A DNA stretch of 30,469 nucleotides, from positions 1 to 30,469 of the IMG/VR virus record IMGVR_UViG_3300043468_002023. One strand, written 5' to 3'. A model generated the notes under the pieces. That model was not told where the DNA came from. It saw nothing but the letters and a program-made list of their open reading frames with translations, and did not search any database. A program made the translations under genes and the position numbers. Positions 7,507 through 29,384 of this stretch are shown piece by piece (the first letter of the stretch is position 1; each line of letters starts with the position of its first letter). Source of the DNA: a virus.

Positions 7507-8163
7507 ATGCTATGGCGTAATGATTTGGTAAAAGATATAAGATTTCATGATTCAGATGATGATGTTGATGAACCCCTACGTGCAAGAATGAATGTATCTT
7601 GGAATATTCCGCCCGATCAGGCTGGACCATATTCGCACTTTACATTGGATAATCACAGAGCTTTGCAGTTTTCCATAGATAACTTCAAACAACGAACTGG
7701 CAGACCTCTTAGAACAATTTTAGAAATTGGTGTTGGTATAAAGTTTTTCATGGATCATGGATCAGCATCTACTTCGACTCTTTTGAAAAACCTAGATGCT
7801 GATGGTAAGTATTTGGGTATCGATATTCAAGATTCAAGTCATGTGCATGATCCCAACAAGGGGATTCATACCATGATTGTTAGGTCTGAAGACATAGCAA
7901 CAGTTCGTAAAAAAATGCTAGAAATTGGTATCAATGAAATTGATTATTTGTTTATTGATGGATGGCACAGTATTAATCAGGTTTTAAAAGAATGGGAATA
8001 TACACAATTCCTTAGTCCTGGCGCTGTAGTCGGCTGGCACGATACCAAGGCTCATCCTGGACCATATTTGTTTTTGCGAAATCTAGATAAAAACAAATGG
8101 GTGTCCTATGAAAACCTATGCCCAAACGACTATGGATTTGGATACTGCTATAGAAAGAATTAA
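7507..8163 (+). CDS. Class I SAM-dependent methyltransferase
   Basis: This 218-residue protein has Rossmann methyltransferase features: ILEIGVG at ~71-77 (SAM motif I), then YLGIDIQ (motif II acidic end), and IDYLFIDGWHS with LSPGAVVGWHDT near residues 145-178. The last pattern is typical of the methyltransferase_24/sugar-biosynthesis O-methyltransferase group, so a sugar or small molecule is a likelier target than DNA; no DNA-methylase catalytic motif (NPPY, PCQ) is seen. Its codon use differs from its neighbours: of 13 serine codons, 10 are TCN and 3 AGY, while the phage core prefers AGY. With its own terminator-promoter flank, it looks like a recently gained 'moron'. It overlaps the next gene as TAATG. 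Confidence 0.8.
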   Translation: MLWRNDLVKDIRFHDSDDDVDEPLRARMNVSWNIPPDQAGPYSHFTLDNHRALQFSIDNFKQRTGRPLRTILEIGVGIKFFMDHGSASTSTLLKNLDADGKYLGIDIQDSSHVHDPNKGIHTMIVRSEDIATVRKKMLEIGINEIDYLFIDGWHSINQVLKEWEYTQFLSPGAVVGWHDTKAHPGPYLFLRNLDKNKWVSYENLCPNDYGFGYCYRKN

Positions 8164-8732
8164 TGTACACAAGCAACGCCACAATAATCAAAGAAAATTG
8201 GACACGCACACGTCCAAGTACGGTCAATTTCCTTAGACCGAATAGTTTTCTATTCAGCATCAAAGATTTGCCCAATACCAATTTTACATGTCAGAGTGCT
8301 AACCTACCGGCCTTGAATTTAGGCTTTGCAGTTCAATCGACACCTTTTACGGACTTGCCTAGAATAGGCGATAAGATAAATTTTGGAGAATTTACTGTTC
8401 GTTTCATCATAACCGAAGACATGGGCAATTATCTTGAGCTCTATCGTTGGCTCATAGCTCTTGGTTTTCCCTATGACTTCAACCAATTTGGTAGTTTTGT
8501 TCAATCGCGTCGCGACATCTTCCCATTCAATACTGGTGATGGTGGAGCCTATAGTGACGGTACTTTGACCATACTAAATAGTAGTAACCTACCACAGACC
8601 AGAATTTTGTTCAGGGATTTATTCCCTATTAGCCTAGAAGCACTTGACTTCGATGTCACAGGTGCTACACTAGAGTATTTTACTGCCATTGCATCATTCA
8701 AATATAAGTATTTTGATGTAGAGGTTCTTTAG
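8163..8732 (+). CDS. Tail-tube-fold virion protein (gp3/gp54-like position)
   Basis: This 189-residue protein has the strand pattern of T4-like tail-tube relatives: an N-terminal FLFSIKDLP strand, CQSANLPALNL, PRIGDKINFGEFTVRFIITEDM around residues 65-90, a helix on YLELYRWLIAL, and a final strand pair ATLEYFTAIASFKYKYFDVEV. It resembles the region of gp19 that forms the tube but is distinct from the gp19 at 1179. Between gp23 and uvsY, marine T4-like phages carry a tail-completion gene, so a tail terminator (gp3) or baseplate tube initiator (gp54) role is plausible. The fold family is fairly sure; the specific role is not. It starts at the ATG that overlaps the methyltransferase stop. Confidence 0.65.
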   Translation: MYTSNATIIKENWTRTRPSTVNFLRPNSFLFSIKDLPNTNFTCQSANLPALNLGFAVQSTPFTDLPRIGDKINFGEFTVRFIITEDMGNYLELYRWLIALGFPYDFNQFGSFVQSRRDIFPFNTGDGGAYSDGTLTILNSSNLPQTRILFRDLFPISLEALDFDVTGATLEYFTAIASFKYKYFDVEVL

Positions 8733-12649: not shown

Positions 12650-13495
12650 ATGAGCAAGATTAAAATATCAGAATTATTCTATAGCATTCAAGGTGAAGGT
12701 CGATTCATGGGTGTGCCCAGTGTGTTCTTGAGAACCTTTGGATGTAATTTTACCTGTGATGGCTTTGGCATGCCCCGAGGAGAAAAAAGTGACGAGCGAG
12801 AAATCATTGCACAACATGCGGATCAGTACAAAAATTATAAATCTTTGCCTCTGGTTACTACAGGTTGTGATAGTTACGCTAGTTGGGATGTTAGGTTCAA
12901 GCATCTTAGCCCTGTTGTGTCTGTTGATGTTATTGTTGATGCCATTCTACATATGCTACCTCATGGCAAGTGGACAAGTGAGCATCTCGTTATTACAGGA
13001 GGAGAACCACTGCTTGGGTGGCAAAGGTCGTATCCTGATCTCCTCTCGCACCCCGATATGGTCAATCTTCAAGAACTCACATTCGAGACCAACGGAACCC
13101 AAAAACTAGAACCTAAATTTTCTGAATATCTCAAGACTCATTGGCGCAAGGGCTGGGATCGACTTACTTTCAGTGTGAGTCCCAAACTAAGTGTCAGTGG
13201 TGAGAAATGGTCGGATGCCATCAAGCCCGAAATAATCATGCAGTATCAGGAACATGGGTTTGTATATCTGAAGTTTGTTGTAGCCACCGAAGATGATGTC
13301 GCCGAAGCATCCCAGGCAGTTCAGGAATATGTTGATGCAGGGTTTACGGGTCCTGTGTACCTCATGCCCGTAGGTGGTGTTGAATCAGTTTATGCCATGA
13401 ACAATAAAAATGTCGCGCTCATGGCCATGAAGAAAGGCTGGCGATATTCAGACAGACTTCAGGTGCCATTGTTTAAGAATGAATGGGGTACCTGA
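12650..13495 (+). CDS. queE: 7-carboxy-7-deazaguanine synthase (QueE family, radical SAM)
   Basis: QueE converts 6-carboxy-tetrahydropterin to 7-carboxy-7-deazaguanine using SAM and a 4Fe-4S cluster. The 281-residue protein has the family start ISELFYSIQGEGRFMGVPSV, then the cysteine motif RTFGCNFTC (C32, C36). The third cluster cysteine, normally two residues after the second, is instead probably C73 in TTGCDSYASW, so ~36 residues are inserted within the CxxxCxxC loop. TGGEPLLG (116-123) is the SAM-binding GGEP motif. ELTFETNGTQ follows. It is the first gene of the 7-deazaguanine cluster, preceded by AGGAGATATATT and a hairpin. The stop overlaps the next small gene (TGATG). Confidence 0.9.
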   Translation: MSKIKISELFYSIQGEGRFMGVPSVFLRTFGCNFTCDGFGMPRGEKSDEREIIAQHADQYKNYKSLPLVTTGCDSYASWDVRFKHLSPVVSVDVIVDAILHMLPHGKWTSEHLVITGGEPLLGWQRSYPDLLSHPDMVNLQELTFETNGTQKLEPKFSEYLKTHWRKGWDRLTFSVSPKLSVSGEKWSDAIKPEIIMQYQEHGFVYLKFVVATEDDVAEASQAVQEYVDAGFTGPVYLMPVGGVESVYAMNNKNVALMAMKKGWRYSDRLQVPLFKNEWGT

Positions 13496-13632
13496 TGCAA
13501 CGTTTTCCGAGTTACTGTTGCCAAAAGTGTGGAGAACATATAGGTTGGTTAGGCAGATTTTTTAACGCTCTTTTACCCGGGTGGCACAAGTGTCCACCAA
13601 CTGAAAGAGATTCAAACAATTGGGGTATTTAA
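13495..13632 (+). CDS. Small Cys-rich protein (45 residues, zinc-ribbon-like)
   Basis: This short frame fills the queE-folE gap. Its ATG overlaps the queE stop and its TAA overlaps the folE ATG, so it is coupled on both sides. It reads MQRFPSYCCQKCGEHIGWLG, then a hydrophobic basic middle (RFFNALLPGW), then HKC, and a Ser/Asn tail. Cysteines C8/C9, C12 and C33, with H31 nearby, could form a zinc-ribbon-like site (CxxCG then HxC), but a full four-ligand pattern is not certain. No function is assigned. The gapless coupling at both ends is the main argument that it is translated. Confidence 0.55.
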   Translation: MQRFPSYCCQKCGEHIGWLGRFFNALLPGWHKCPPTERDSNNWGI

Positions 13633-14366
13633 TGAGTAATAAACTAGTAGAACAAGCACCATATCATCCAGGCTACGAAGGTGCTGTGTTTGGTCGTCCC
13701 ATGAGTGAAGTCATCCGTGAACGCATTCAACAAGGGCAGGCAAGATTTTTCGCCAATGACAACATTTCTCCATTTATTCATGATGAAGAAGAAATCGATC
13801 GGTTGGTAGATGAAGTAGCCGATAAGTTTCAAGGCGTATTACGCAGTCTCATCATTGATACCAGCAACGATCATAACACGCAAGATACTGCACGTCGTGT
13901 AGCCAAGATGTTTGTTCGTGAAACATTCAGTGGTCGATATGCCAATCCACCCAAGGTAACTGCTTTTCCTAACGTAACAGAATACGATCAGCTTTATGTC
14001 ACAGGTCCTATCACTATTCGGAGCACTTGCGCGCATCATTTCCAAAATATTGTTGGCAGGGCTTATATTGGTGTTTTTCCTGGTCGCAATGTTATTGGGC
14101 TTAGTAAGTTTAATCGTATAACCGATTGGATTGCTAGCCGCCCACAGATCCAGGAAGAAATGACCGTACAGATTGCCGATGCCATTGAGCGCGAAACCGA
14201 AGCCGATGGTGTAGCAGTATTGATTCAAGCCGAGCATCATTGCATGACTCATCGTGGAGTCAAAGAGCATGAATCAGACATGACCACCAGTGTCATGCGT
14301 GGCAAGTTCCGTGACGACCATGCCCTCAAGCAGGAATTTTTCAGCATTGTTGGAAAGATGAAATGA
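13632..14366 (+). CDS. folE: GTP cyclohydrolase I (FolE)
   Basis: FolE converts GTP to 7,8-dihydroneopterin triphosphate, the first step to 7-deazaguanines and folates. I use the ATG at 13632 (244 residues), which overlaps the preceding stop; a TTG at 13620 is less likely. Zinc ligands are visible as C133 and H136 in STCAHHF and C204 in EHHCMTHRG, as in the family (Cys-xx-His plus Cys). TTSVMRGKF near residue 218 is the conserved C-terminal GTP-binding segment. The N-terminal ~60 residues are extra and divergent. With QueE, QueD and DpdA nearby, it most likely feeds base modification rather than folate. It overlaps the exonuclease gene by four nt (ATGA). Confidence 0.93.
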   Translation: MSNKLVEQAPYHPGYEGAVFGRPMSEVIRERIQQGQARFFANDNISPFIHDEEEIDRLVDEVADKFQGVLRSLIIDTSNDHNTQDTARRVAKMFVRETFSGRYANPPKVTAFPNVTEYDQLYVTGPITIRSTCAHHFQNIVGRAYIGVFPGRNVIGLSKFNRITDWIASRPQIQEEMTVQIADAIERETEADGVAVLIQAEHHCMTHRGVKEHESDMTTSVMRGKFRDDHALKQEFFSIVGKMK

Positions 14367-14866
14367 CGCAAGTCATGATTGACCTAGAAACGCTAAGTAC
14401 GCAATACAATGCCACCATACTTAGCATAGGCGCCGTAAAGTTCCAGGATCAAAGTATCCTGGATACTTTTTACGTAAACATAGATCCGGCTTCGTGCAAA
14501 CAAGCCGGTCTGCATGTGGAACGTAAGACCATAGAATGGTGGAGCAAGCAAAACGCCGAAGCCCGCAAAGCCATCATGAAGGACCAACGGTCATTGACAG
14601 ATGCGCTCAAAGCATTTAGAATCTGGTATGGTAGCCAAAGCGTACCAACCTGGGGCAACGGAGCAGCATTTGATCTGGTCATCATGACCAGCGCATTTCG
14701 CAGCATCGATACCGAACCTCCCTGGAAGCCCTGGGAAGAACGCTGCTACAGAACCATCAACGCCATTGTAAAGATACCGCAAGATGAACGGCAAGGAACA
14801 TACCATAATGCACTTGATGATGCTCTGCACCAGACACGTCATCTCATGAAGATTCTAGGAAGTTAA
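14363..14866 (+). CDS. DEDDh 3'-5' exonuclease (DexA/Rv2179c-like)
   Basis: This 167-residue protein is a stand-alone DnaQ-fold exonuclease. Acidic catalytic residues are visible: D7 and E9 in MIDLETL (Exo I), D104 in GNGAAFDL (Exo II) and H148 plus D152 in YHNALDDA (Exo III), giving the DEDDh class. It most resembles the T4 DexA / PF16473 group, which trims single-stranded DNA or RNA from 3' ends; the T4 enzyme is longer (227). It starts four nt inside folE. In this place it could degrade host nucleic acid to supply GTP and nucleotides, or process phage ends; context does not decide. Confidence 0.88.
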   Translation: MTQVMIDLETLSTQYNATILSIGAVKFQDQSILDTFYVNIDPASCKQAGLHVERKTIEWWSKQNAEARKAIMKDQRSLTDALKAFRIWYGSQSVPTWGNGAAFDLVIMTSAFRSIDTEPPWKPWEERCYRTINAIVKIPQDERQGTYHNALDDALHQTRHLMKILGS

Positions 14867-14867
14867 C

Positions 14868-16157
14868 ATGTACGAATACGTAGCCAGTGGTACCAGCTAT
14901 TTCAAGCTCATGTACCAGGAAAGTTATAGACGAGAGAATCTCGAAGTCTTTGAAAAGACCTTTGCCAGTCTCAATGGACAGCATAAGCACAACATCAGTC
15001 TATTGTACAATGCCTTTACGGAATCCAGGACCGGTCCACGCATCAGAGAAAACTATGGATCAATGATTCATAGTGTGCATGCAGACTCCGGTGGCTTGCA
15101 GGTCATCACTCTAGGCAAGCAGATTACCCCAGAGCTCAAAGAGCAGGTCTATGCCAATCAGGCTCTGAATTCCACCATTGCCATGTGCTTTGACATGATT
15201 CCAGTATCTACCCGAAGTGGCGATCGCAGTGGTCGATTGGATTTAGAAAATCGTTATTTTGATCATGACAAGCTGGAAGCCTGTGCACGTGAGACCGGAA
15301 AGAACCTAAGACGTCAGATTGACCATTTCGATGAGAAAAAGAGTCAGGCTCGCCCCATGCTCATTGCACAGGGCAACTGTTATGACACCTACATGCGTTG
15401 GGTGGACTATATTGTTCAAGAATTAACTCCCTATCACATAAGTCGCATCGGCGGCATAGCCATGGGAGCTGCGGCTCTGGGCAAAGGTCCTCTGGAGGAC
15501 ATCAAGCGAGCATTTTACTTTACCAAGTTGCCCATTGAACTACAGAGTCCGCACATGCACTTGTTGGGCGTGGGCAGTGTTTATAGACTGTTGCCCAACA
15601 TCATATTCTTTCAGAACGGACTATACGAAGGCGTTGAACTAAGCTATGACAGCACAACGCATACCAGCGGAGTAACGCAGGGTCGTTATTACTTGACTGG
15701 TGATAGAGTCATCAATGGCAAGTATCGTACCAGCGAATATCAGTTGTCGTTCACCAGAACCTTTGACGATAACTATAGAATCGTCTGGGAAGATATCTGC
15801 GCAATCTTTCCGTTCATGTCTCGTTACAGTCTCAACACCTTTTATGAAGTTCTTCAGATCAGCGCTCGTGATTACGAAGCCAAACATGGCAGCATAGATC
15901 CCAGCATTCAGATCTATATTGCCTATGTCAGTGCCTGCATCAAGAACTTCATGCGGCACGTAGAGCATGTTACTGAGAGTCGTGAAAATCTCATAGACTT
16001 TGCTCGCGGTGATGACAAGAATGCGTTTCATTTTCTATACGAAGTACAAAGCACCGATGATTTCAATCATTGGCTAAACAACATAGGCAAGACCATTGAT
16101 AGTGAACCCGTAGCTGTCTCACAATCAAGCGTCGATTTAATGGAGATGATGTCATGA
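14868..16157 (+). CDS. dpdA: DpdA-type DNA 7-deazaguanine transglycosylase (TGT paralogue)
   Basis: DpdA enzymes replace guanine in DNA with a 7-deazaguanine by base exchange; the tRNA-guanine transglycosylase is the RNA paralogue. It has 429 residues. TIM-barrel TGT motifs are visible: HADSGGLQ (D73 aligns with the general Asp of DSGGFQ in TGT), a GGIAMG loop at 195-200, MHLLGVGS at ~230, and SYDSTTHT with D261 at the nucleophile position. The Cys-x-Cys-xx-Cys zinc site of classical TGT is absent. Coupling with FolE, QueE, QueD and a YhhQ transporter makes DNA (not tRNA) modification the natural reading. The next gene overlaps by four nt. The family is fairly sure; the exact base inserted is unknown. 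Confidence 0.82.
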   Translation: MYEYVASGTSYFKLMYQESYRRENLEVFEKTFASLNGQHKHNISLLYNAFTESRTGPRIRENYGSMIHSVHADSGGLQVITLGKQITPELKEQVYANQALNSTIAMCFDMIPVSTRSGDRSGRLDLENRYFDHDKLEACARETGKNLRRQIDHFDEKKSQARPMLIAQGNCYDTYMRWVDYIVQELTPYHISRIGGIAMGAAALGKGPLEDIKRAFYFTKLPIELQSPHMHLLGVGSVYRLLPNIIFFQNGLYEGVELSYDSTTHTSGVTQGRYYLTGDRVINGKYRTSEYQLSFTRTFDDNYRIVWEDICAIFPFMSRYSLNTFYEVLQISARDYEAKHGSIDPSIQIYIAYVSACIKNFMRHVEHVTESRENLIDFARGDDKNAFHFLYEVQSTDDFNHWLNNIGKTIDSEPVAVSQSSVDLMEMMS

Positions 16158-16558
16158 ATATCCGTAGATGGATCGAAGTAAGTTTTCAGAAAGAAGGTAT
16201 ACACAAGTATCCTGCAGCAGCCGAAGATCCCAAACTAGCTACTGGCGGTTGGGATGATGTTAGTTTCCTGGCAAATCCACATCGTCACATGTTCCATTTC
16301 AATGTTAGGCTCGAAGTAGAACACAACGATCGCGATGTTGAATTCATTCAGTTCAAGCGCTGGCTGGAGAGGCTGTATTCACAGGGTACGCTGGAGCTTG
16401 ATTATCACAGTTGTGAAATGATGGCCGAAGAACTAATCGAACAAATCATGACGACCTATCCAAATCGTGACATTGAGGTTCGAGTATTCGAAGATGGTGA
16501 AAATGGCGCCATACTGACTGCCAGTCGCGATCGTCAGTGGAGAATTGTTGAACTATGA
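16154..16558 (+). CDS. Unknown protein, possibly T-fold (QueD-like)
   Basis: This 134-residue protein has no firm family. Its order of features is reminiscent of a tunnelling-fold (QueD/PTPS) protein. A strand ANPHRHMFHFNVRLEVEH (residues ~40-57, with H43, H45, H48) recalls the HGHNY strand. DVEFIQFKRWLERLY (61-75) recalls the D-F-x-x-L-K helix. SCEMMAEELIEQI (86-98) recalls the T-x-E-N-L-A helix, and DIEVRVFEDGENGAIL (106-121) the V-x-V-x-E strand. The match is by eye and catalytic residues are not conserved. It starts inside the dpdA stop (ATGA) and its stop overlaps the cupin gene, so it may act with DpdA, for example in substrate handling. Confidence 0.6.
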   Translation: MNIRRWIEVSFQKEGIHKYPAAAEDPKLATGGWDDVSFLANPHRHMFHFNVRLEVEHNDRDVEFIQFKRWLERLYSQGTLELDYHSCEMMAEELIEQIMTTYPNRDIEVRVFEDGENGAILTASRDRQWRIVEL

Positions 16559-16926
16559 TAGCCGAACCAATGACCGATGACTTTAGCATCGAAGGACATA
16601 AGGTTGTTAGAGTTGCCAGGAATTGGGGGCACTACAAAGTATTGCAGGAGTATCCTGGCGTAAAGGTCAAAGAACTTCTGGTTGAGCCCGGTCAGAGTCT
16701 TAGCCTGCAACGGCATTTCCACAGAGCAGAATTTTGGATTGTAGTTGATGGTAACGGTATGCTAGAACTAGACAATAAAAAACTAGAGCTCAAGCCACAG
16801 ACAACCGTTACCATTAAACCACTCCAATGGCACAAATTGTGGAACACCAGCAATCGACTTTTACGCCTAGTTGAGATACAATATGGGTCTGAATGTGACG
16901 AAGCCGATATTGAAAGGAAAACATGA
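16555..16926 (+). CDS. Cupin, mannose-6-phosphate isomerase type II-like
   Basis: This 123-residue single-domain cupin resembles the C-terminal isomerase domain of bifunctional mannose-1-phosphate guanylyltransferase/mannose-6-phosphate isomerase (ManC/XanB). Signature: VKELLVEPGQSLSLQRHFHRAEFW with metal ligands H54, H56 and E59, then H93 in PLQWHKLWN, and the ending EIQYGSECDEADIER. It would interconvert fructose-6-phosphate and mannose-6-phosphate. The guanylyltransferase half is absent here. With the GT-B transferase and GDP-mannose dehydratase that follow, it forms a GDP-mannose-derived sugar cassette. It overlaps genes at both ends by four nt. Confidence 0.85.
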   Translation: MIAEPMTDDFSIEGHKVVRVARNWGHYKVLQEYPGVKVKELLVEPGQSLSLQRHFHRAEFWIVVDGNGMLELDNKKLELKPQTTVTIKPLQWHKLWNTSNRLLRLVEIQYGSECDEADIERKT

Positions 16927-18002
16927 AGAACTTTTATATTGTGGACATTGAGCCCTTGGATAATAGGTACACCAAGCAATGGCGTACCTGGATTCCTAAG
17001 GTCGCCCAAGAGTATCTGGGCGAAGGGTTCAAAGTGGTGAACATAGCCGGCGAAGAAGGTGAATACAAGAAGCCCGAACCCGGCGCATTTTTTGACTTTT
17101 TAGGTACTTGCAAATACAAGGCCAGTCAGACCATTCGTATTGCCGAGCTCTTTGAGCAAGGCAAAGTTCGGGATGGTGATATCTTCTACTTTACTGATGC
17201 CTGGAATCAGACCATTCACTTCCTGAAGTACATGGCTGAACTCAAAGACATACAAATCTATACTGCAGGTATCTGGCATGCTGGTGCCTATGATCCTACA
17301 GACATCTTGGGTGTTAAGATCAAGAATAAGCCCTGGGTCTATGGTTTTGAAGCATCTAGTTATTATGCTTTTGACATTAACTTCTTTGGTTCACATTACA
17401 ATAAAAACCTTTTCTTGCAAACACTAGGGCTGGAATCCCAAGAAAGAGTACTAGGTAGATGTGTAAGTCCTGGAGCCTATTGTCTGGAATGGATTCGTGA
17501 CCTTAAGAACGACCATGCCAAAGAGAACATAGTTGTATTTCCGCATCGGCTGAATTACGACAAAGCACCCTATGTGTTCGATGAAATTGCTGCTGAAGTG
17601 CAAAAGACCAGACCTGATATTCGGTTCATCAAGACACAAGAACAGAACTTCAGCAAAGAAGAATACTATGACTTCCTCAAGACCTGCAAGGTAATCTTTA
17701 GTGCCAACAAGCACGAAAATCTTGGCATTGGTACCTTCGAAGCCATGTGCTCGGGTTGCATTCCCTTGTTGCCTGACAAACTAAGCTATCATGAAATGTA
17801 TGATCCAGTTTTCAAATATGAAGTTCAAGATAACCTTTATGACGTTGGTGCCAACAGAGAATATCTAGCACGTCGCATCATTTACTATGTTGACTACTAT
17901 GAAAATTATAGAGCCGACTTAAATAATAACATCGATAGGCTTCATGACACCTATTTCAGTGGTCGTAACATGTTTGAAATTATGAAAAGGACCTTTGTAT
18001 GA
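16923..18002 (+). CDS. Glycosyltransferase, GT-B fold (GT4-like)
   Basis: This 359-residue protein has a C-terminal nucleotide-sugar-binding domain typical of GT4-like enzymes: VVFPHRLNYDKAP (~200-212), then CKVIFSANKHENLGIGTFEAMCSGCIPLLPD (~258-288). The E-N-x-G-x-x-x-x-E-A-M-x-x-G-x-x-P core corresponds to the EX7E region that contacts the donor. The N-terminal half is an unrelated-looking Rossmann acceptor domain. The neighbouring cupin and GDP-mannose dehydratase suggest a GDP-linked donor such as GDP-mannose, GDP-rhamnose or GDP-fucose, by inference. The acceptor is unknown. It overlaps its neighbours by four nt each side. Confidence 0.82.
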   Translation: MKNFYIVDIEPLDNRYTKQWRTWIPKVAQEYLGEGFKVVNIAGEEGEYKKPEPGAFFDFLGTCKYKASQTIRIAELFEQGKVRDGDIFYFTDAWNQTIHFLKYMAELKDIQIYTAGIWHAGAYDPTDILGVKIKNKPWVYGFEASSYYAFDINFFGSHYNKNLFLQTLGLESQERVLGRCVSPGAYCLEWIRDLKNDHAKENIVVFPHRLNYDKAPYVFDEIAAEVQKTRPDIRFIKTQEQNFSKEEYYDFLKTCKVIFSANKHENLGIGTFEAMCSGCIPLLPDKLSYHEMYDPVFKYEVQDNLYDVGANREYLARRIIYYVDYYENYRADLNNNIDRLHDTYFSGRNMFEIMKRTFV

Positions 18003-19018
18003 GAGCAGTAATTACGGGCGTGACCGGCCAGGATGGAGCCTATCTAGCCAAACTACTTCTAGAGAAAAACTATAAGGTCTATGGAGCCTATAGGCGTACA
18101 AGTACTCCAAACTTTCATCGCATGCAAGAATTGAACATTCTTGATCATGAAAATTTAAAACTTGTAGAATGCGATTTGACAGATCTAGGAAGTTGCATAA
18201 GACTTTTGGATCAGGCCAAACCCAAAGAGGTCTATAATCTTGCAGCACAGAGTTTTGTGGGAGCTAGCTTCAACAGTCCAGCAACCACAACACTCATCAA
18301 TACCATGGGCCCGTTGAATTTGCTGGAAGCCATTCGTACCCTGGATCGCAAGATTAAATTCTATCAGGCCAGCACCAGTGAAATGTTTGGCAAAGTACAG
18401 ACTGTACCACAGAACGAACATACGCCTTTCTATCCTCGCAGTCCCTATGGTGTCAGCAAACTCTATGGACATTGGATTACAGTTAATTATCGAGAAAGCT
18501 ATGACATTCATGCCAACAGCGGCATCTTATTCAATCATGAAAGTCCCTTGCGCGGTCTGGAATTTGTAACCAGAAAAATTACCGATGGCCTGGCTAGAAT
18601 TCACAACAGGCAACAGCAGGTGCTTAAGTTAGGGTTCCTGGATGTCAAGCGAGATTGGGGGCACGCCGAAGATTATGTCCATGCCATGTGGCTCATGCTC
18701 CAACAATCCCAACCACGAGACTTTGTTGTATCCACTGGAACACAATACAGTGTAAGGCAATTCTGTGAAGCCAGTGCACGTGCTCTGGATTATGACCTTA
18801 TCTGGGAAGGCAGCGGTGTTGACGAAGTTGGCATCAATGCCAAGTCCGGCAAAGTAGTTATTCGCATTGATCCAGAATTCTATCGTCCAGCCGAAGTAAA
18901 TACCCTGTTGGGTGATAGTTCCGAAGCTCGAAAAGTCCTGGGCTGGATGCCCAAGCATACTTTTGATAGTATGGTTACCAGCATGGTCGAAGCTGACCTT
19001 CGACGCACTGCTAAATAA
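17999..19018 (+). CDS. gmd: GDP-mannose 4,6-dehydratase
   Basis: Gmd converts GDP-mannose to GDP-4-keto-6-deoxymannose, the precursor of GDP-fucose, GDP-rhamnose and related sugars. It has 339 residues, close to the usual ~345-370. It is an extended short-chain dehydrogenase with NADP-binding GVTGQDG (7-13), the family marker YRRTSTPNFHR (31-41), catalytic S125/T126 in QASTSEMFG, and Y150-xxx-K154 in RSPYGVSKLYGHW. NHESPLRGLEFVTRKI is typical of Gmd. A reductase to finish the sugar is not seen here, so the host or another phage gene may supply it. It ends the sugar cassette; a 74-nt gap follows. Confidence 0.95.
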   Translation: MRAVITGVTGQDGAYLAKLLLEKNYKVYGAYRRTSTPNFHRMQELNILDHENLKLVECDLTDLGSCIRLLDQAKPKEVYNLAAQSFVGASFNSPATTTLINTMGPLNLLEAIRTLDRKIKFYQASTSEMFGKVQTVPQNEHTPFYPRSPYGVSKLYGHWITVNYRESYDIHANSGILFNHESPLRGLEFVTRKITDGLARIHNRQQQVLKLGFLDVKRDWGHAEDYVHAMWLMLQQSQPRDFVVSTGTQYSVRQFCEASARALDYDLIWEGSGVDEVGINAKSGKVVIRIDPEFYRPAEVNTLLGDSSEARKVLGWMPKHTFDSMVTSMVEADLRRTAK

Positions 19019-19049
19019 CAGAAGCGGCCTTAAGACGCTCATCCCGCTC

Positions 19050-19057
19050 TATAAATT
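19050..19057 (+). promoter_or_regulatory. Late-promoter-like TATAAATT before queD
   Basis: This is a 7 of 8 match to TATAAATA in the 74-nt gap between gmd and queD (19019-19092), 35 nt before the queD start. The gap holds nothing else recognisable apart from the AGAGGCAAGAG ribosome region. No sigma70 -35/-10 pair is clear. Confidence 0.4.
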
Positions 19058-19092
19058 CTGCGTGTCATCAAACTTACTCCAAGAGGCAAGAG

Positions 19093-19599
19093 ATGGCTTT
19101 AATAAATACATCACATCCTTACAAATACGTTAGTACCAAAGAATATCATGATGCATTTCCCTGCGCATATCGCCAATGGCGAGCCGACAGTCATTGCAAC
19201 ATGATTCATGGTTATAGTTTTAGCATGAAATTTTACTTTGGTACCGATGATCTCGATGTTCGTAACTGGGCAGCTGATTATGGCGGCCTAAAAGAACTAA
19301 AAAAGATTCTCGAAGACCAATTCGATCATACCCTGTTGGTTGCCGAAGATGATCCTGAACTAGAAACCTTTAAACTCCTGCAAGCCAAGAAGATGGCTAA
19401 ACTAACTATACTACCAAGACTGGGTTGTGAAGGTTTGGCTGATATGTTATATAAGTATGTCAATGGTGTTTATATACCAGATATGTGGGGCCTGGGCGAA
19501 CACAATCGCTTATGGTGTTTCCGAGTAGAAGTTCGCGAAACACAAGCCAACATGGCCTATCGTGAAGGTCACAGACATTGGAACGAACAACTACTCTAA
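19093..19599 (+). CDS. queD: 6-carboxy-tetrahydropterin synthase (QueD/PTPS family)
   Basis: QueD turns dihydroneopterin triphosphate from FolE into 6-carboxy-tetrahydropterin, the QueE substrate. The 168-residue T-fold protein shows AFPCAYRQWRADSHCNMIHGYSF (residues 21-43) with the catalytic-type C35 and H39. The second His of the usual HGH is Tyr (Y41), so the zinc site may use H34 or H19. The helix DYGGLKELKKIL (62-73), DHT (78-80) and VEVRETQANMAY (145-156) are family features. This RQWRADSHC subgroup also occurs in other phages and some bacteria. It follows the gmd gap and leads into the transporter gene nine nt later. Confidence 0.87.
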   Translation: MALINTSHPYKYVSTKEYHDAFPCAYRQWRADSHCNMIHGYSFSMKFYFGTDDLDVRNWAADYGGLKELKKILEDQFDHTLLVAEDDPELETFKLLQAKKMAKLTILPRLGCEGLADMLYKYVNGVYIPDMWGLGEHNRLWCFRVEVRETQANMAYREGHRHWNEQLL

Positions 19600-22799: not shown

Positions 22800-24511
22800 T
22801 AAAATTTTCCAAAATACGCTGGCGAAACTTTCTAAGTACTGGCAGTAACTTTACTGAGATACAACTAAATCGCAGTCCTAGCACTCTGATCATAGGTGAG
22901 AATGGAGCCGGTAAAAGCACCATATTGGATGCCATTTGTTTTGCATTGTTCGGAAAACCCTTTCGCAGCATCAACAAGCCACAGCTGGTAAACAGCATCA
23001 ACGGTAAAAATTGCGAAGTAGAAATAGAATTCAGCATAGGCAGAAAAAACTATAGCATTGTTCGTGGCATCAAGCCTGCGATTTTTGAAATTACCTGTGA
23101 TGGTGAAGTGCTTAATCAGGATGCTGCCAGCCGGGACTATCAAAAGATTCTCGAAGAACAAATACTAAAATTAAACTATAAGTCTTTCACACAGATTGTC
23201 ATACTAGGCAGTGCCAGCTTTACACCCTTCATGCAGTTGCCACCATCGCACAGACGCGAAATCATCGAAGACATTTTGGATATTCAGATCTTTACGGTCA
23301 TGAATACTGTGCTAAAAGATAAAATAAGCATTGTCAAGGACAGCATCAAAACCATTGATGGTCAGATCGAAGTAGGCAAGCAAAAAGTCAAAGTTCAAGG
23401 CGAGTATGTAAAAAAGTTAGAAGATGACAAAAAGAAACGAGAAGCAGATGCAAACCTGGCCATCACCGAATCACAAGCAACTATTAATAGATTACAACAA
23501 GAGGCAGCGCAGCTGGCTGAAAATCTACAGACTCTCAAAGAATCAACAGCGGACGAGTCAACTGTCTCGCAAAGAAGAACTGAGATGGTTACTTTACTTA
23601 AATCACTCAATCAGCGTATCAACTCTGCCAGGGATCAGATTACCTTCTACGAGGAACATGATAATTGTCCAACATGCGCTCAGCTTCTTACTGGAGAGCT
23701 TAAGTCTACAGCGATTGAGAAACACTCGCATAAAATCGAAGAAATCAACGCGGCACTTGATTCCCTTAACCATAAAATCTCAGAAGTTGAAGCAAGAATT
23801 GATGCAATATCTGCTATCAAAAACACGATTGCCGATGTACAGGATTCGATCGTTGACATCAACAGTAAAATTATCAGCGAGCAAACCTTTATCCGTAAGA
23901 TACAGACTGAAGCAGAGAAATCGGTTGATACAGAAAACAGTTTGGATAGCGCTAAATCAACCCTCAAAGAACTTGCCAAAGAAGTTGTATCGGCGTCAGA
24001 AAGTAAAAGTAAGTTCCGCGAGGACTCGTATTATCTTGAAGCCTGTGCCACGTTACTCAAGGATACTGGAATCAAAACTAGAATTATAAAACAGTATCTG
24101 CCCGTAATCAACAAGCTGGTAAATAAATATCTAGCAGCCATGGACTTCTTTGTGAGCTTTGAGTTGGATGAAACCTTCAAAGAAGTCATTCGCAGTCGTC
24201 ACCGAGACGATTTTAGCTATGCCAGCTTTAGTGAAGGGGAAAAGCAACGCATTGACCTTGCTCTCCTATTCACCTGGCGTACCATAGCCAAGATGAAGAA
24301 CAGTGCAGCCACCAACCTTCTCATACTCGATGAAGTATTCGATTCTAGTCTTGACAACAACGGTACTGATTACGTCATGGGTCTTTTGAACACTCTGGGC
24401 GAAGAAACCAATACATTTGTCATTAGCCATAAAGGTGATCAGCTCTTTGATAAGTTTAGAAGTCTGATCAAATTCGAAAAACACCAAAATTTTAGCCAGA
24501 TGAAATTATGA
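22796..24511 (+). CDS. 46: Recombination endonuclease subunit gp46 (Rad50/SbcC-like)
   Basis: This is the ATPase subunit of the gp46/47 complex. It has 571 residues (T4: 560). Walker A GENGAGKS is at 34-41, a Q-loop region follows (YKSFTQIVILG), then coiled coil flanking a zinc hook CPTC at 291-294. The second ATPase half has the signature FSEGEKQRIDLALLF and Walker B LLILDEVFDSS, followed by the switch His in VISHK. The central coiled-coil segment (about 23460-24040) has different codon use from both ends: serine codons are TCN 17 to AGY 6 there, against strong AGY preference on either side, a sign of a recombined patch. The reading frame is intact. Confidence 0.96.
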   Translation: MIKFSKIRWRNFLSTGSNFTEIQLNRSPSTLIIGENGAGKSTILDAICFALFGKPFRSINKPQLVNSINGKNCEVEIEFSIGRKNYSIVRGIKPAIFEITCDGEVLNQDAASRDYQKILEEQILKLNYKSFTQIVILGSASFTPFMQLPPSHRREIIEDILDIQIFTVMNTVLKDKISIVKDSIKTIDGQIEVGKQKVKVQGEYVKKLEDDKKKREADANLAITESQATINRLQQEAAQLAENLQTLKESTADESTVSQRRTEMVTLLKSLNQRINSARDQITFYEEHDNCPTCAQLLTGELKSTAIEKHSHKIEEINAALDSLNHKISEVEARIDAISAIKNTIADVQDSIVDINSKIISEQTFIRKIQTEAEKSVDTENSLDSAKSTLKELAKEVVSASESKSKFREDSYYLEACATLLKDTGIKTRIIKQYLPVINKLVNKYLAAMDFFVSFELDETFKEVIRSRHRDDFSYASFSEGEKQRIDLALLFTWRTIAKMKNSAATNLLILDEVFDSSLDNNGTDYVMGLLNTLGEETNTFVISHKGDQLFDKFRSLIKFEKHQNFSQMKL

Positions 24512-25098
24512 TTATAATCCGTAAAGACCTAATCAACATTGTTGATCCTGCTAGCGACATCATGCGTACTCCCTTGCAGGACTTTAATTTTGATGAACAC
24601 GCTCAAGCTGAAATCGACATGATGGTAAATGTTCTAACCAATAAAATGGTAGAGCTTGGTGGTGTTGGTCTTAGTGCCAACCAGGTTGGTTTGCCATATA
24701 GAGTGTTCGTCATGGGCATCAAAGAATATCATGGAGCATTTTTCAATCCTCGAATCATTGAAACCATTGGTGAGCCCCAGGCTTTCAAGGAAGGTTGTCT
24801 AAGTTATCCCGGCCTGTTCATGTACATCAAACGTCCAGATTCAGTGCGTGTAGGTTATCAGAATCAACGAGGAGAGCATCGTGAAACTACATTTTCAGGT
24901 TTGACGGCAAGAATTTTTCAACATGAATATGATCATATGGAAGGCAGAGATTTTACCATGGGCGCTAGCAAGCTAAAAATGAAAATGGCCAAGGATCGAT
25001 ACGAAAAGAAAAAGAAGCAACTAATCAGGCAACATGCCATAGCCACCATGCGAAAGGCCATCGAAGATGGACACCAAGAAAATACTAAAGCAGTATGA
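24508..25098 (+). CDS. def: Peptide deformylase
   Basis: The enzyme removes the formyl group from N-terminal methionine of new proteins. It has 196 residues, close to bacterial enzymes (~170). All three motifs are present: GVGLSANQ (52-59; the usual Gly-Leu-Ala is Gly-Leu-Ser here), EGCLS (95-99, metal ligand C97) and QHEYDH (138-143, H139, E140, H143). Unlike the shortened cyanophage enzymes, it has a basic C-terminal helical extension (~155-196, rich in Lys). It is coupled to gp46 by ATGA. Phage deformylases are thought to support rapid translation of phage proteins. Confidence 0.95.
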   Translation: MIIIRKDLINIVDPASDIMRTPLQDFNFDEHAQAEIDMMVNVLTNKMVELGGVGLSANQVGLPYRVFVMGIKEYHGAFFNPRIIETIGEPQAFKEGCLSYPGLFMYIKRPDSVRVGYQNQRGEHRETTFSGLTARIFQHEYDHMEGRDFTMGASKLKMKMAKDRYEKKKKQLIRQHAIATMRKAIEDGHQENTKAV

Positions 25099-25880: not shown

Positions 25881-25909
25881 TTGACTCTAGGTTGCAAAGG
25901 TGCTAGAAT
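25881..25909 (+). promoter_or_regulatory. Sigma70-type promoter before the VWA gene
   Basis: TTGACT (-35, 25881-25886), a 17-nt spacer, an extended TGC and TAGAAT (-10, 25904-25909). It lies in the 72-nt gap before ATG 25932. The -10 is centred in the palindrome TGCTAGAATAGCA. A nearly identical promoter lies before the AAA+ gene at 28148. The next gene has the ribosome site AAGGAGAA. Confidence 0.85.
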
Positions 25910-25931
25910 AGCAGTATAGTAAGGAGAACAC

Positions 25932-28151
25932 ATGGAAAACCGAGGTATTCTAGCCCGTCTCATGGCTGTGGAGAACATTACAGTCGAACATCGCAACATC
26001 GAAACTGCTAGTTTCGATGTACTAAATCGTGTGCTCACCCTTCCGACCTGGAAGGCCATGAGCCCCGAGCTCTATGACATGTTGAGAGCTCATGAAGTTG
26101 GTCATGCTCTGGAGACGCCTGCACAGGGTTGGCATGGTACGGTCATTGCTGATCGACGCCTAAAAAGTTTCCTCAACGTAGTCGAAGATGCTCGCATTGA
26201 ACGTTTGATCAAGAATCGTTTTCCTGGTCTGCGTCCTAGTTTCGTCAAAGGCTACAAGGAATTGTACGACCAAGACTTTTTTGGTACGGCCAATAAAAAA
26301 CTAGACACTCTGCTGCTGGTTGACCGCATCAATTTGCATTTCAAGATTGGCAGTCATCTAAATGTTCCCTTTGACGACTACGAACAGACCATTGTCGATC
26401 GTGTAGCACAAGCTCGTACCTGGGATGATGTTGTGGCCCTGGCCAAGGAAATCTATGACTTCGATGCCGAAGAGCTCAAGCGTCAAATCGAAGAAAGTCT
26501 TGATGCTCAACGCATGCTTTCGGATGGTTTGGGTGATTTGGAATACGACGAAGATGCCGAAGGCCTAGAATCCGAAGAAGAAGCCGAAGGCGAAACTTCC
26601 GATGAACGCCACAAGGTTGGCGGCGATGGTGCCAGTGGTAATGTACATACTCCTGGTCGCAAGGTACTAGATGATTGGTATGAGTTTAGAAGCGAAACTG
26701 ATGGTCCAGAAAGCATGACCGACACCATATTCAGACAACGCGAAACAGAACTGCTGGATGAAAAAACTCTGCCCAGAATCTATGTTGACGTTCCAACGGC
26801 TAACCTAGACAACATCATTGTTCCGCATAAAGTCGTAGCCGATCAATTTAAATTTGTTGCTCTGGAAGGCGCAGAAATTGACCAGCATCTCAAGAACAAC
26901 TTGAAATTTCCAGAGTACAAGGCAGACTTCATGTTGCGCAACAGTAGATTTGTTGATCACATGGTGCGCGAATTCGAGATCAAACGCAATGCTCGTCAGA
27001 TGGCCAGAGCCGGCAGTGCCAAGACAGGTGCATTGAACCTCAAGAAGGTACATCAATACAAGTTGACCGATGACCTGTTCCAACGGCTAACAGTTGTACC
27101 CAAAGGCAAGAATCATGGCATGATCATGATGTTTGATCAGAGCGGCAGCATGGGCGAATACTATGGCCAGACTTTGGAACAGATAGTTGTACTCAGCATG
27201 TTCTGTCGTAAGATTAATGTACCATTCCATGTCTATGGGTTTACCGACAATACCGATCATCTTCCCAACAACCAAAGATATGTTGAGCGTGCAAGTTTCT
27301 CAAGCAACGTTGGTGAAATTGCTTTCCATGGTCGGAATTATTTTACTCTGCGCGAATATTTTTCACATACACAGACATCAACAGAATTCAAAGCCATGGT
27401 GGACAGAGTTTTGATATTGGCTGCTAGTTGGCGTAGGCGTAGTAGCTACATGGTTAGCATGTTGCCCTTGAGCGAACGTCTGTGTGGTACTCCCTTGAAC
27501 GAAGCCATTGCCAGTCTCATAGAAATGGTTCCGGCCTTCAAAAAAGCTCATAGGTTGGACATTGTAAACACCATTCTGCTTACCGATGGTGAAAGCAACA
27601 ATGCTCTGAGTTCTTTTGTTGCCAATACAGATACCACTGAAAATTCACGACCCAAGACCGCAAACTATGTACATCGTTATGCTGGCTCAACTTATCTTTG
27701 CTTTAGGCACAAGGTCAGCAAATTAGAAGTGCAGACTTTGACCCATCACGACAATCGTGATGCAAGAACTACTGCGGCCTTGCTGCGGTTGATGTCCTCA
27801 ATTACGGGTGCCCGTACCATTGGCTACTTTATTTCCGAAGGACACCGCAATCGTTTGCGTGAATGGTACAAAAGCAATCATGAACTATCCAATCCTAATT
27901 CCGAAGAAACTTTTGCCGAGTCAGCCGCTCTTGAAATTAGAAAACATGGTTATTGGTTATCCAAGGATGAACTGTTGACTGGTTACAAGAACTATTTCAG
28001 AGTAAGCGGTAAGTTCCTGGACTTCAAAGAAGAATCGTTGGAAGTTGATAGTGCAAATACCAAGGATCTTCGCAAGGCATTTGCCAAGTTACATGGTGAC
28101 AAACGCAAGCATCGTTTACTTCTTAGTAATTTTATTGAGCAGATTGCTTGA
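25932..28151 (+). CDS. VWA-domain protein with N-terminal HEXXH motif (CobT/MoxR-partner type)
   Basis: This large 739-residue protein begins with a zincin-like segment: LRAHEVGHALETP (HEVGH at 54-58), then VVEDARIERLIKNRFPG (~83-99), which could supply further active-site residues. An acidic low-complexity stretch follows (~180-235). From ~395 it has a von Willebrand factor A domain with the MIDAS start FDQSGSMGE (D402, S404, S406) and a later LLTDGESN (D552). This layout recalls CobT-like proteins that work with MoxR/CobS AAA+ ATPases, and such an ATPase is the next gene. No cobalt-chelatase activity is implied. Protease or chaperone-type remodelling of a target is a plausible role. It has its own sigma70 promoter. 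Confidence 0.85.
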   Translation: MENRGILARLMAVENITVEHRNIETASFDVLNRVLTLPTWKAMSPELYDMLRAHEVGHALETPAQGWHGTVIADRRLKSFLNVVEDARIERLIKNRFPGLRPSFVKGYKELYDQDFFGTANKKLDTLLLVDRINLHFKIGSHLNVPFDDYEQTIVDRVAQARTWDDVVALAKEIYDFDAEELKRQIEESLDAQRMLSDGLGDLEYDEDAEGLESEEEAEGETSDERHKVGGDGASGNVHTPGRKVLDDWYEFRSETDGPESMTDTIFRQRETELLDEKTLPRIYVDVPTANLDNIIVPHKVVADQFKFVALEGAEIDQHLKNNLKFPEYKADFMLRNSRFVDHMVREFEIKRNARQMARAGSAKTGALNLKKVHQYKLTDDLFQRLTVVPKGKNHGMIMMFDQSGSMGEYYGQTLEQIVVLSMFCRKINVPFHVYGFTDNTDHLPNNQRYVERASFSSNVGEIAFHGRNYFTLREYFSHTQTSTEFKAMVDRVLILAASWRRRSSYMVSMLPLSERLCGTPLNEAIASLIEMVPAFKKAHRLDIVNTILLTDGESNNALSSFVANTDTTENSRPKTANYVHRYAGSTYLCFRHKVSKLEVQTLTHHDNRDARTTAALLRLMSSITGARTIGYFISEGHRNRLREWYKSNHELSNPNSEETFAESAALEIRKHGYWLSKDELLTGYKNYFRVSGKFLDFKEESLEVDSANTKDLRKAFAKLHGDKRKHRLLLSNFIEQIA

Positions 28152-28176
28152 CAGTCGAAGAAATTCGTGCTAGAAT
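28148..28176 (+). promoter_or_regulatory. Sigma70-type promoter before the AAA+ gene
   Basis: TTGACA (-35, 28148-28153) overlaps the TGA stop of the VWA gene. A 17-nt spacer with an extended TGC precedes TAGAAT (-10, 28171-28176). The 14-nt segment around the -10 is identical to that of the promoter at 25881. The AAA+ start lies 26 nt beyond. Confidence 0.88.
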
Positions 28177-28202
28177 AGCATTACATATATCATGGAGCCT
28201 GT

Positions 28203-29384
28203 ATGAAATACACTGATCTTAGCAAAAAGTCCCTGGTTGAAAAGCTTCTTTCGGACAATGGTCCCAGGGTCGATCGCCGTACCATCGAAGCCGCAGCCCA
28301 GGCCATGGGCTTGCCTTTTCCCAGATTCATCATCGACAACAACAATCTTAAGGTTGGTCGTGGCATTTGGGATCTTGGTAATTTTGATCCCGCTGTCCCT
28401 GCACCTGTTGCTAGTTATGAGCAACTAGCTGCACCAGCCCTGGCTGCTTCGGTTACGGCCATTGAGACTGTGCGCCAAAAGCGACTCATGAATGAGTTTG
28501 TTGATCTAGTTCCCGAAGAAGATGCTAACTTTGTTAGCCATGGCTTCTTCAGGGACCTTACTCAGATCATTCGCAGCAAGGATTTCTTTCCGGTGTTCAT
28601 TACGGGCCTGAGCGGCAATGGCAAAACCAGCATGGTTGAGCAGGTATGTGCTCGCCTAAAACGCGAAATGTTTCGTGTGAACATCAGCATTGAGACCGAC
28701 GAAGACGATCTCATTGGTGGTGCTACGCTGGTGGATGGTAACGTTGTATATCGTGAAGGTCCAGTGTTGACTGCCATGCGTCGTGGTGCAGTGTTGTTGC
28801 TTGACGAAGTCGATCGTGGCAGCAACAAGTTGCTTTGCTTGCAGAGTGTGCTAGAAGGTAAGTCCTACCTGAATAAAAAGACTGGTGAAGTAGTTCGTCC
28901 AGCTCCGGGCTTTACGGTGGTTGCCACAGCCAATACCAAGGGTCGTGGTACTGAAGATGGCAAGTACATTGCTGCGCAGATCCTGGACGAAGCATTCCTG
29001 GAGCGTTTCAGCATCACAGTCGAGCAAGAATATGCTGAACCCAAGGTAGAGAAAAAGATAGTCATGAACTACATGGCTAAATACAACATATCAGATGAAG
29101 ATTTTGCTTCGAAGCTTGTGGCTTGGGCCGATATCATTCGCCGTACTCATTCCGAAGGCGGTGTGGATGAAATTATTAGTACCCGCCGTCTGGTGGATGT
29201 GGTCAAGACCTTCAGTAAGTTCAATGATCGTAAAAAAGCCATTGAGCTCTGTACCAACCGTTTCGATGAAGAAACCAAGTTAGCCTTCCGTGAACTGTAT
29301 GCCAAATTGGAAGCTCCTCCGGTCCCCGAAGAAGTTGCTCCAGCAGCTCCTTCTGTAGACCCCAGTGTAGAGATTCCTTTCTAA
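28203..29384 (+). CDS. MoxR/CobS-type AAA+ ATPase
   Basis: This 393-residue ATPase has an N-terminal helical part (1-110), then a AAA+ core: Walker A GLSGNGKT (135-142), ETDEDDLIGG (~164-173), Walker B VLLLDEVDR (~197-205), sensor-1 VVATANTKGRG, and ILDEAFLERF with the arginine of the ERF box. The C-terminal end is Pro/Ala/Glu-rich. It resembles CobS and other MoxR ATPases that pair with VWA proteins. Similar genes in T4-like cyanophages are often labelled 'cobS', though cobalamin synthesis is not shown. It has its own strong promoter and forms a two-gene unit with the preceding VWA gene. Confidence 0.92.
   Translation: MKYTDLSKKSLVEKLLSDNGPRVDRRTIEAAAQAMGLPFPRFIIDNNNLKVGRGIWDLGNFDPAVPAPVASYEQLAAPALAASVTAIETVRQKRLMNEFVDLVPEEDANFVSHGFFRDLTQIIRSKDFFPVFITGLSGNGKTSMVEQVCARLKREMFRVNISIETDEDDLIGGATLVDGNVVYREGPVLTAMRRGAVLLLDEVDRGSNKLLCLQSVLEGKSYLNKKTGEVVRPAPGFTVVATANTKGRGTEDGKYIAAQILDEAFLERFSITVEQEYAEPKVEKKIVMNYMAKYNISDEDFASKLVAWADIIRRTHSEGGVDEIISTRRLVDVVKTFSKFNDRKKAIELCTNRFDEETKLAFRELYAKLEAPPVPEEVAPAAPSVDPSVEIPF

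Follow-up and report, generated by a model that had tools for sequence, protein, structure and literature searches.

A phage gene pair labelled CobS/CobT combines a MoxR-class AAA+ ATPase with a VWA protein carrying a predicted metallopeptidase domain

Introduction

Is a phage gene pair that is widely labelled CobS/CobT really a pair of vitamin B12 genes? The question is raised by IMG/VR record IMGVR_UViG_3300043468_002023, a fragment of a T4-like myovirus of 30,469 nt (hereafter the window, to whose positions all coordinates refer), in which a gene for a VWA protein with an HEVGH motif is followed by a gene for a AAA+ ATPase. The gene cobS is counted among the core auxiliary metabolic genes of marine cyanophages, and surveys treat it as a B12 gene and also as a marker of communities (PMC3037559, PMC9301287, PMC9983427). 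Published opinions on the identity of the family disagree. According to one study, viral CobST may hijack the CobN of the host, and the cyanophage gene is a CobT 'mistakenly annotated as a peptidase' (PMC8651126). Another described, in group 2.2 jumbo T4-like phages, a MoxR protein together with a vWA protein bearing an N-terminal metallopeptidase, and proposed a role in virion assembly (PMC7824862, Viruses 2021). The architecture considered here, already published in 2021, is therefore not a new one. We find that the VWA gene keeps invariant catalytic-type residues and that both genes have host-type promoters, and we estimate at about 0.6 the probability that they form an early- or middle-expressed, ATP-driven remodeller with a built-in metallopeptidase.

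Results

The first gene encodes a VWA protein with an invariant HExxH site

The first gene and its parts are as follows.

25932..28151, plus strand: VWA gene with predicted metallopeptidase domain (739 amino acids; PHROG 459, 'peptidase')
25932..26471, plus strand: N-terminal gluzincin-like domain, residues 1-180, predicted from a structural model, PDB matches and conservation
26091..26105, plus strand: HEVGH, residues 54-58 (H54/E55/H58)
26175..26201, plus strand: NVVEDARIE, residues 82-90, with E85 as proposed third zinc ligand
26472..26891, plus strand: acidic, poorly conserved linker, about residues 181-320, with low predicted local distance difference test scores (pLDDT) at residues 199-256
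27099..28148, plus strand: VWA domain, residues 390-739, with metal ion-dependent adhesion site (MIDAS) residues D402/S404/S406, T520 and D552
27135..27152, plus strand: MIDAS motif DQSGSM, residues 402-407

The protein aligned over its full length with PHROG 459 (E 7.5e-181; residues 2-739 on profile positions 5-736 of 736). Homologues were found in 463 database phages, almost all of them cyanophages and three of them Pelagibacter phages, at an amino acid identity of only about 28-38%; the closest environmental relative reached about 43%. Searches of Pfam and NCBIfam (the latter at E <= 1) returned no family, and a search of PDB sequences with the profile of the protein returned low-complexity matches only. 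We rejected the protein as a listed defence protein because PADLOC gave no match for it; the ATPase obtained only weak matches there.

We compared 17 sequences, that of the window and those of relatives collected with search patterns from which the HExxH motif was absent. Residues H54, E55, H58, N82, E85, D86, R88 and I89 were all invariant. The preliminary description of this DNA had pointed out the two open reading frames and the HEVGH motif at H54/H58; both are present, and the motif proved constant in the relatives. The HExxH and NxxEDxRI residues were still invariant in 38 proteins with identities of 20-44% and in 59 divergent phage N-termini; as the second round of collection partly used EDxRI, the invariance of this second motif in the larger sets reflects in part how these were collected. 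HExxH itself was never a search criterion in the viral scans and was present in 101 of 103 homologous reading frames. The two negative frames lacked the motif region, at least one of them being cut by a contig end. Conservation of HExxH is far beyond chance. The pattern expected of gluzincins, an HExxH motif and a conserved Glu downstream, was thus found as invariant H54, E55, H58 and E85.

A model of the N-terminal domain built from the 59 sequences (mean pLDDT 90.3) placed HExxH within helix 45-61 and E85 within helix 75-96. Gluzincin metallopeptidases made up most of its PDB matches: ZMPSTE24 (Z score 7.4), ArdC (7.0), BepA (6.7), abylysin (6.5), BlaR1, IrrE and selecase. Most of the strong structural matches were zincins, with Z of 7.4 or less and a Foldseek E of 0.047; these individual scores are modest, and it is the consistency of the match list that argues for the predicted gluzincin assignment. 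Viral structures sharing the domain included actinophage and halovirus proteins annotated CobT or VWFA. Prediction for residues 1-180 thus gave a gluzincin-like domain around H54/H58, as the protease-like zinc motif of the preliminary description had suggested, rather than a fold with no zinc site there.

Mean pairwise identity was highest in the N-terminal domain (0.47), lower in the VWA region (0.28) and lowest in the acidic linker (0.20). The full MIDAS (D402-x-S404-x-S406, T520, D552) was invariant both in the 17-sequence set and in the 38 proteins. In the full-length model, the VWA half matched best NorD bound to NorQ (Z 16.8), followed by the midasin MIDAS (Z 15.0). A VWA fold with a complete MIDAS places the protein among the VWA partners of AAA+ ATPases.

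The second gene encodes the partner ATPase

28203..29384, plus strand: MoxR/CbbQ/CobS-class AAA+ ATPase gene (393 amino acids; PHROG 249)
28605..28628, plus strand: Walker A, GLSGNGKT, residues 135-142
28794..28808, plus strand: Walker B, LLLDE, residues 198-202

The second reading frame matched PHROG 249 ('porphyrin biosynthesis / CobS') over the AAA+ core (E 2.4e-107, residues 86-371). It also matched AAA_5 (E 7e-20; 71.9 bits for a curated cut-off of 22) and CbbQ_C (E 3e-5; 24.7 bits for a curated cut-off of 20.6), and its profile matched the structures of midasin, CobS, CbbQ and NorQ. Walker A, Walker B and the conserved ERF arginine showed little or no variation in 17 relatives. The protein is a AAA+ ATPase of the MoxR/CbbQ class. 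Together with the complete MIDAS and the NorD and midasin fold matches of its neighbour, the AAA_5 and CbbQ_C matches bear out the MoxR-VWA pair that had been claimed for this locus.

The VWA gene was followed by the ATPase gene in 89 of 103 loci. The other 14 comprised six with no room left on the contig and eight with no ATPase within the fetched stretch. A search of whole records found the ATPase in all nine of more than 100 kb, in one case about 10 kb away and not adjacent; fragments of less than 100 kb without the ATPase are uninformative on pairing.

The same combination occurs in cells. Proteins with HExxH...NxxEDxRIE and a VWA domain were found, via the second motif, in Vibrio hepatarius, Desulfallas, Pelotomaculum, Acidiphilium, Desulfacinum and Methylocaldum; the variants HENGH, HEAGH, HESAH and HEAAH fall outside the search pattern of the first motif. 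A reading frame with a Walker A motif was located within about 3 kb upstream at five of the six loci, and AAA_5 was confirmed in all three that were tested against Pfam. At one Vibrio hepatarius locus (L137, 4655-10001), genes for a MoxR-like ATPase, a DUF3150 protein and an HExxH-VWA protein are consecutive, which makes a cellular three-gene version. A second, shorter HExxH-VWA protein of 554 amino acids (HEAAH ... NIIEDVRIE) is encoded at L148 of the same genome.

Both genes have host-type promoters

25881..25909, plus strand: sigma-70-type promoter of the VWA gene (TTGACT-17-TAGAAT, extended -10 TG)
28148..28176, plus strand: sigma-70-type promoter of the ATPase gene (TTGACA-17-TAGAAT, extended -10 TG), overlapping the VWA stop codon

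Strong host-type promoters had been claimed for both genes, and the two listed above, near-consensus and a short distance upstream of their genes, ranked top of a 10-kb scan (p=0.005 and <0.005 against shuffles). They are also kept in relatives, which are not phylogenetically independent: a promoter scoring at least 11 of 13 was found upstream of 52 of 89 VWA genes (58%) and of 49 of 80 ATPase genes (61%), for a shuffle background of 0.2% and 0.7%, respectively. Late NATAAATA promoters precede gp22, gp23 and ORF 7507 in the window, where neither gene of the pair is preceded by this motif; upstream of the pair in relatives, late motifs were at or below background. From these motifs we infer early or early/middle expression. 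This cautious wording was chosen because cyanophages lack MotA and are thought to combine early and late promoters for their middle genes (PMC2984593). In the texts searched, no published infection transcriptome naming the genes of the pair was found.

The two promoters share a perfect 13-mer, TGCTAGAATAGCA (25901-25913 and 28168-28180), which forms an inverted repeat around the -10 element. The inverted repeat TGCTA-GAA-TAGCA was rejected as an operator because none of the 98 strong promoters examined in relatives contained it.

Alternative functions

According to the widespread annotation, the pair would be CobS-CobT and would work with the CobN of the host in placing cobalt in the corrin ring, raising B12 levels, as in the published CobN-hijacking proposal. 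Distant homology does exist, between the VWA protein and CobT over the motif region (hhalign E 6.8e-7) and between the ATPase and CobS (TIGR01650), and CobN-type subunits are present in a Prochlorococcus genome. However, the ATPase scored 91.2 bits against TIGR01650, whose CobS cut-off is 558.55, and the VWA protein had no match to the CobT model TIGR01651 (NCBIfam, E <= 1). None of 33 alphaproteobacterial CobT equivalogs, one of which was extracted without its N-terminus, had HExxH at the motif region, which typically reads RHHDxxxH ... VEQARCE, whereas the motif is invariant in the phage family. Absence of the CobT chains 9uka and 21vu from the structural matches listed says nothing on fold. 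Relatives of the pair infect Pelagibacter, and no CobN was found in the SAR11 order either with PF02514 (0/25) or with TIGR02257 (0/20), this being the host order of the pelagiphage relatives, which may not be that of the present virus. TIGR02257 and a class-wide control were added because PF02514 gave no CobN hit in several CobT-bearing Alphaproteobacteria; in this positive control TIGR02257 matched CobN over its cut-off in 20 of 58 Alphaproteobacteria. The order searched was that of a genome called SAR11 by a 16S signature, which we take to be diagnostic, inside a full-length 16S gene. We consider a cobaltochelatase very improbable. The suspicion, voiced in the preliminary description, that the CobS/CobT label is wrong was strengthened by the failed cut-offs and by CobT equivalogs devoid of HExxH, and the sequences suggest that the 'B12' label of the phage pair is probably mistaken. 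As to the identity of the protein, the zinc-motif result favours the description given in PMC7824862 over that in PMC8651126.

Virion assembly or processing, with the pair acting as a chaperone-peptidase for phage structural proteins as in the group 2.2 jumbo phages, is rather unlikely. The architecture is the same, the proposal drew on the example of a MoxR-vWA system that the tails of an archaeal virus require (PMC7824862), and T4-like heads undergo proteolytic maturation. The promoter result weakens this proposal: the head genes of the window have late promoters, the pair has sigma-70 promoters, and the relatives are alike. In addition, the pair sits among replication genes in three other phages, with gp47/gp46 on one side and, on the other, gp45/gp44 (HTVC008M and Ochrobactrum phage OC) or gp45 (P-SSM2), and a gp21 prohead protease is already encoded in the window. 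An early gene may nevertheless act in assembly, T4 gp31 being an example. It is distinctly improbable that the N-terminal domain is a docking module that binds a structural metal or simply keeps the zincin fold, the pair then remodelling without cleavage. CobT retains a homologous N-terminal region devoid of the catalytic motif, so that a non-catalytic role is possible for this domain, and other MoxR-VWA pairs function without a peptidase; but the catalytic-type E55, which a site with a structural role alone could do without, is invariant besides the histidines.

The survey of cellular genomes gave some observations on CobST itself. No CobN match over the cut-off was obtained in 16 of the 33 CobT-positive alphaproteobacterial genomes, several of which may be incomplete. 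The Caulobacter vibrioides control had CobT and no CobN, and SAR11 genomes had CobS-level ATPases and no CobN. In cells, too, the CobST label may conceal a different function.

Gene neighbourhood

The left part of the window carries genes for tail sheath, tail tube, portal, prohead protease, scaffold and major head proteins, and its middle a helicase gene and genes of the 7-deazaguanine pathway; gp47-like, gp46-like and peptide deformylase genes directly precede the pair. The peptide deformylase gene (24508-25098) adjoins gp46, and the same neighbour is found 5' of the CobT-like gene in Ochrobactrum phage OC. The 7-deazaguanine-type set (12650-19596) comprises genes for a QueE-like radical SAM protein (12650), a GTP cyclohydrolase (13620), a weak queuine tRNA-ribosyltransferase-like protein (14868) and a PTPS/QueD-like protein (19093), and possibly serves phage DNA modification. 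An Rv2179c-like 3'-5' exoribonuclease (E 7e-47) is encoded at 14363-14866. The tail-tube family PHROG 45 was matched by two proteins (1179-1763 and 8163-8732), which flank the head genes on either side.

Discussion

We favour an ATP-driven remodeller with a built-in metallopeptidase, consisting of a MoxR/CbbQ-class AAA+ ring and a VWA partner with an active-type N-terminal gluzincin domain. If NorQ-NorD, CbbQ-CbbO, RavA-ViaA and midasin are a guide, the VWA MIDAS would dock a target or an adaptor onto the ATPase ring, and ATP hydrolysis by the ring would remodel the docked target. The HExxH domain may then cleave or trim the remodelled target, with the acidic linker tethering the peptidase half to the VWA half. 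A role of the pair in host takeover is conceivable.

Several points weigh against this proposal. Zinc binding at H54, H58 and E85, the geometry of this site and proteolysis are all deduced from sequence conservation, and the best PDB match of the N-terminal domain has a Z of only 7.4, in a range that the tool calls inconclusive on its own. The choice of a host or early phage protein as target, and not a tetrapyrrole, is likewise deduced. The MoxR-VWA mechanism is borrowed from distant families, the early/middle timing is read from promoter motifs, and the relatives counted for these promoters share ancestry.

A tentative extension, which we would hold with less than even confidence, is that the core cyanophage 'cobS' is not a B12 gene and would encode the motor of a target-specific, ATP-driven metalloprotease that is made early and acts on a host or early phage protein; CobT would then be a degenerate relative whose protease site was lost. 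The importance of the locus lies in the probable mislabelling of a well-known 'B12' phage gene. Should cobS drive a proteolytic remodeller instead, a metabolic account that is often cited would have to be revised, and a gene pair that is abundant in ocean viruses but uncharacterised would be open to direct tests.

Comparison with known systems

The phage pair resembles CobS-CobT in combining a AAA+ protein with a VWA protein and in distant homology that includes the N-terminal domain; it differs in that CobT lacks HExxH and in that the phage proteins fall below both equivalog cut-offs. With the gluzincins (ZMPSTE24 and BepA of M48, abylysin and selecase, ArdC, BlaR1 and IrrE) it shares an HExxH helix followed by a Glu-bearing helix, whereas its Z scores are moderate (7.4 or less) and no Pfam family is assigned. 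NorQ-NorD, CbbQ-CbbO and midasin are alike in VWA fold and ATPase profile, but the match covers the VWA half only, and the HExxH N-terminal domain is an extra of the phage protein. The group 2.2 jumbo-phage pair (PMC7824862), likened here by description only, has the same architecture, a MoxR gene with an N-terminal metallopeptidase-vWA gene; the present pair comes from a genome fragment, and its promoters point to early/middle and not late expression. Homologous counterparts are the PHROG 459 and PHROG 249 proteins of T4-like cyanophages and pelagiphages, whose genes lie in the same gp46/47-gp45 neighbourhood.

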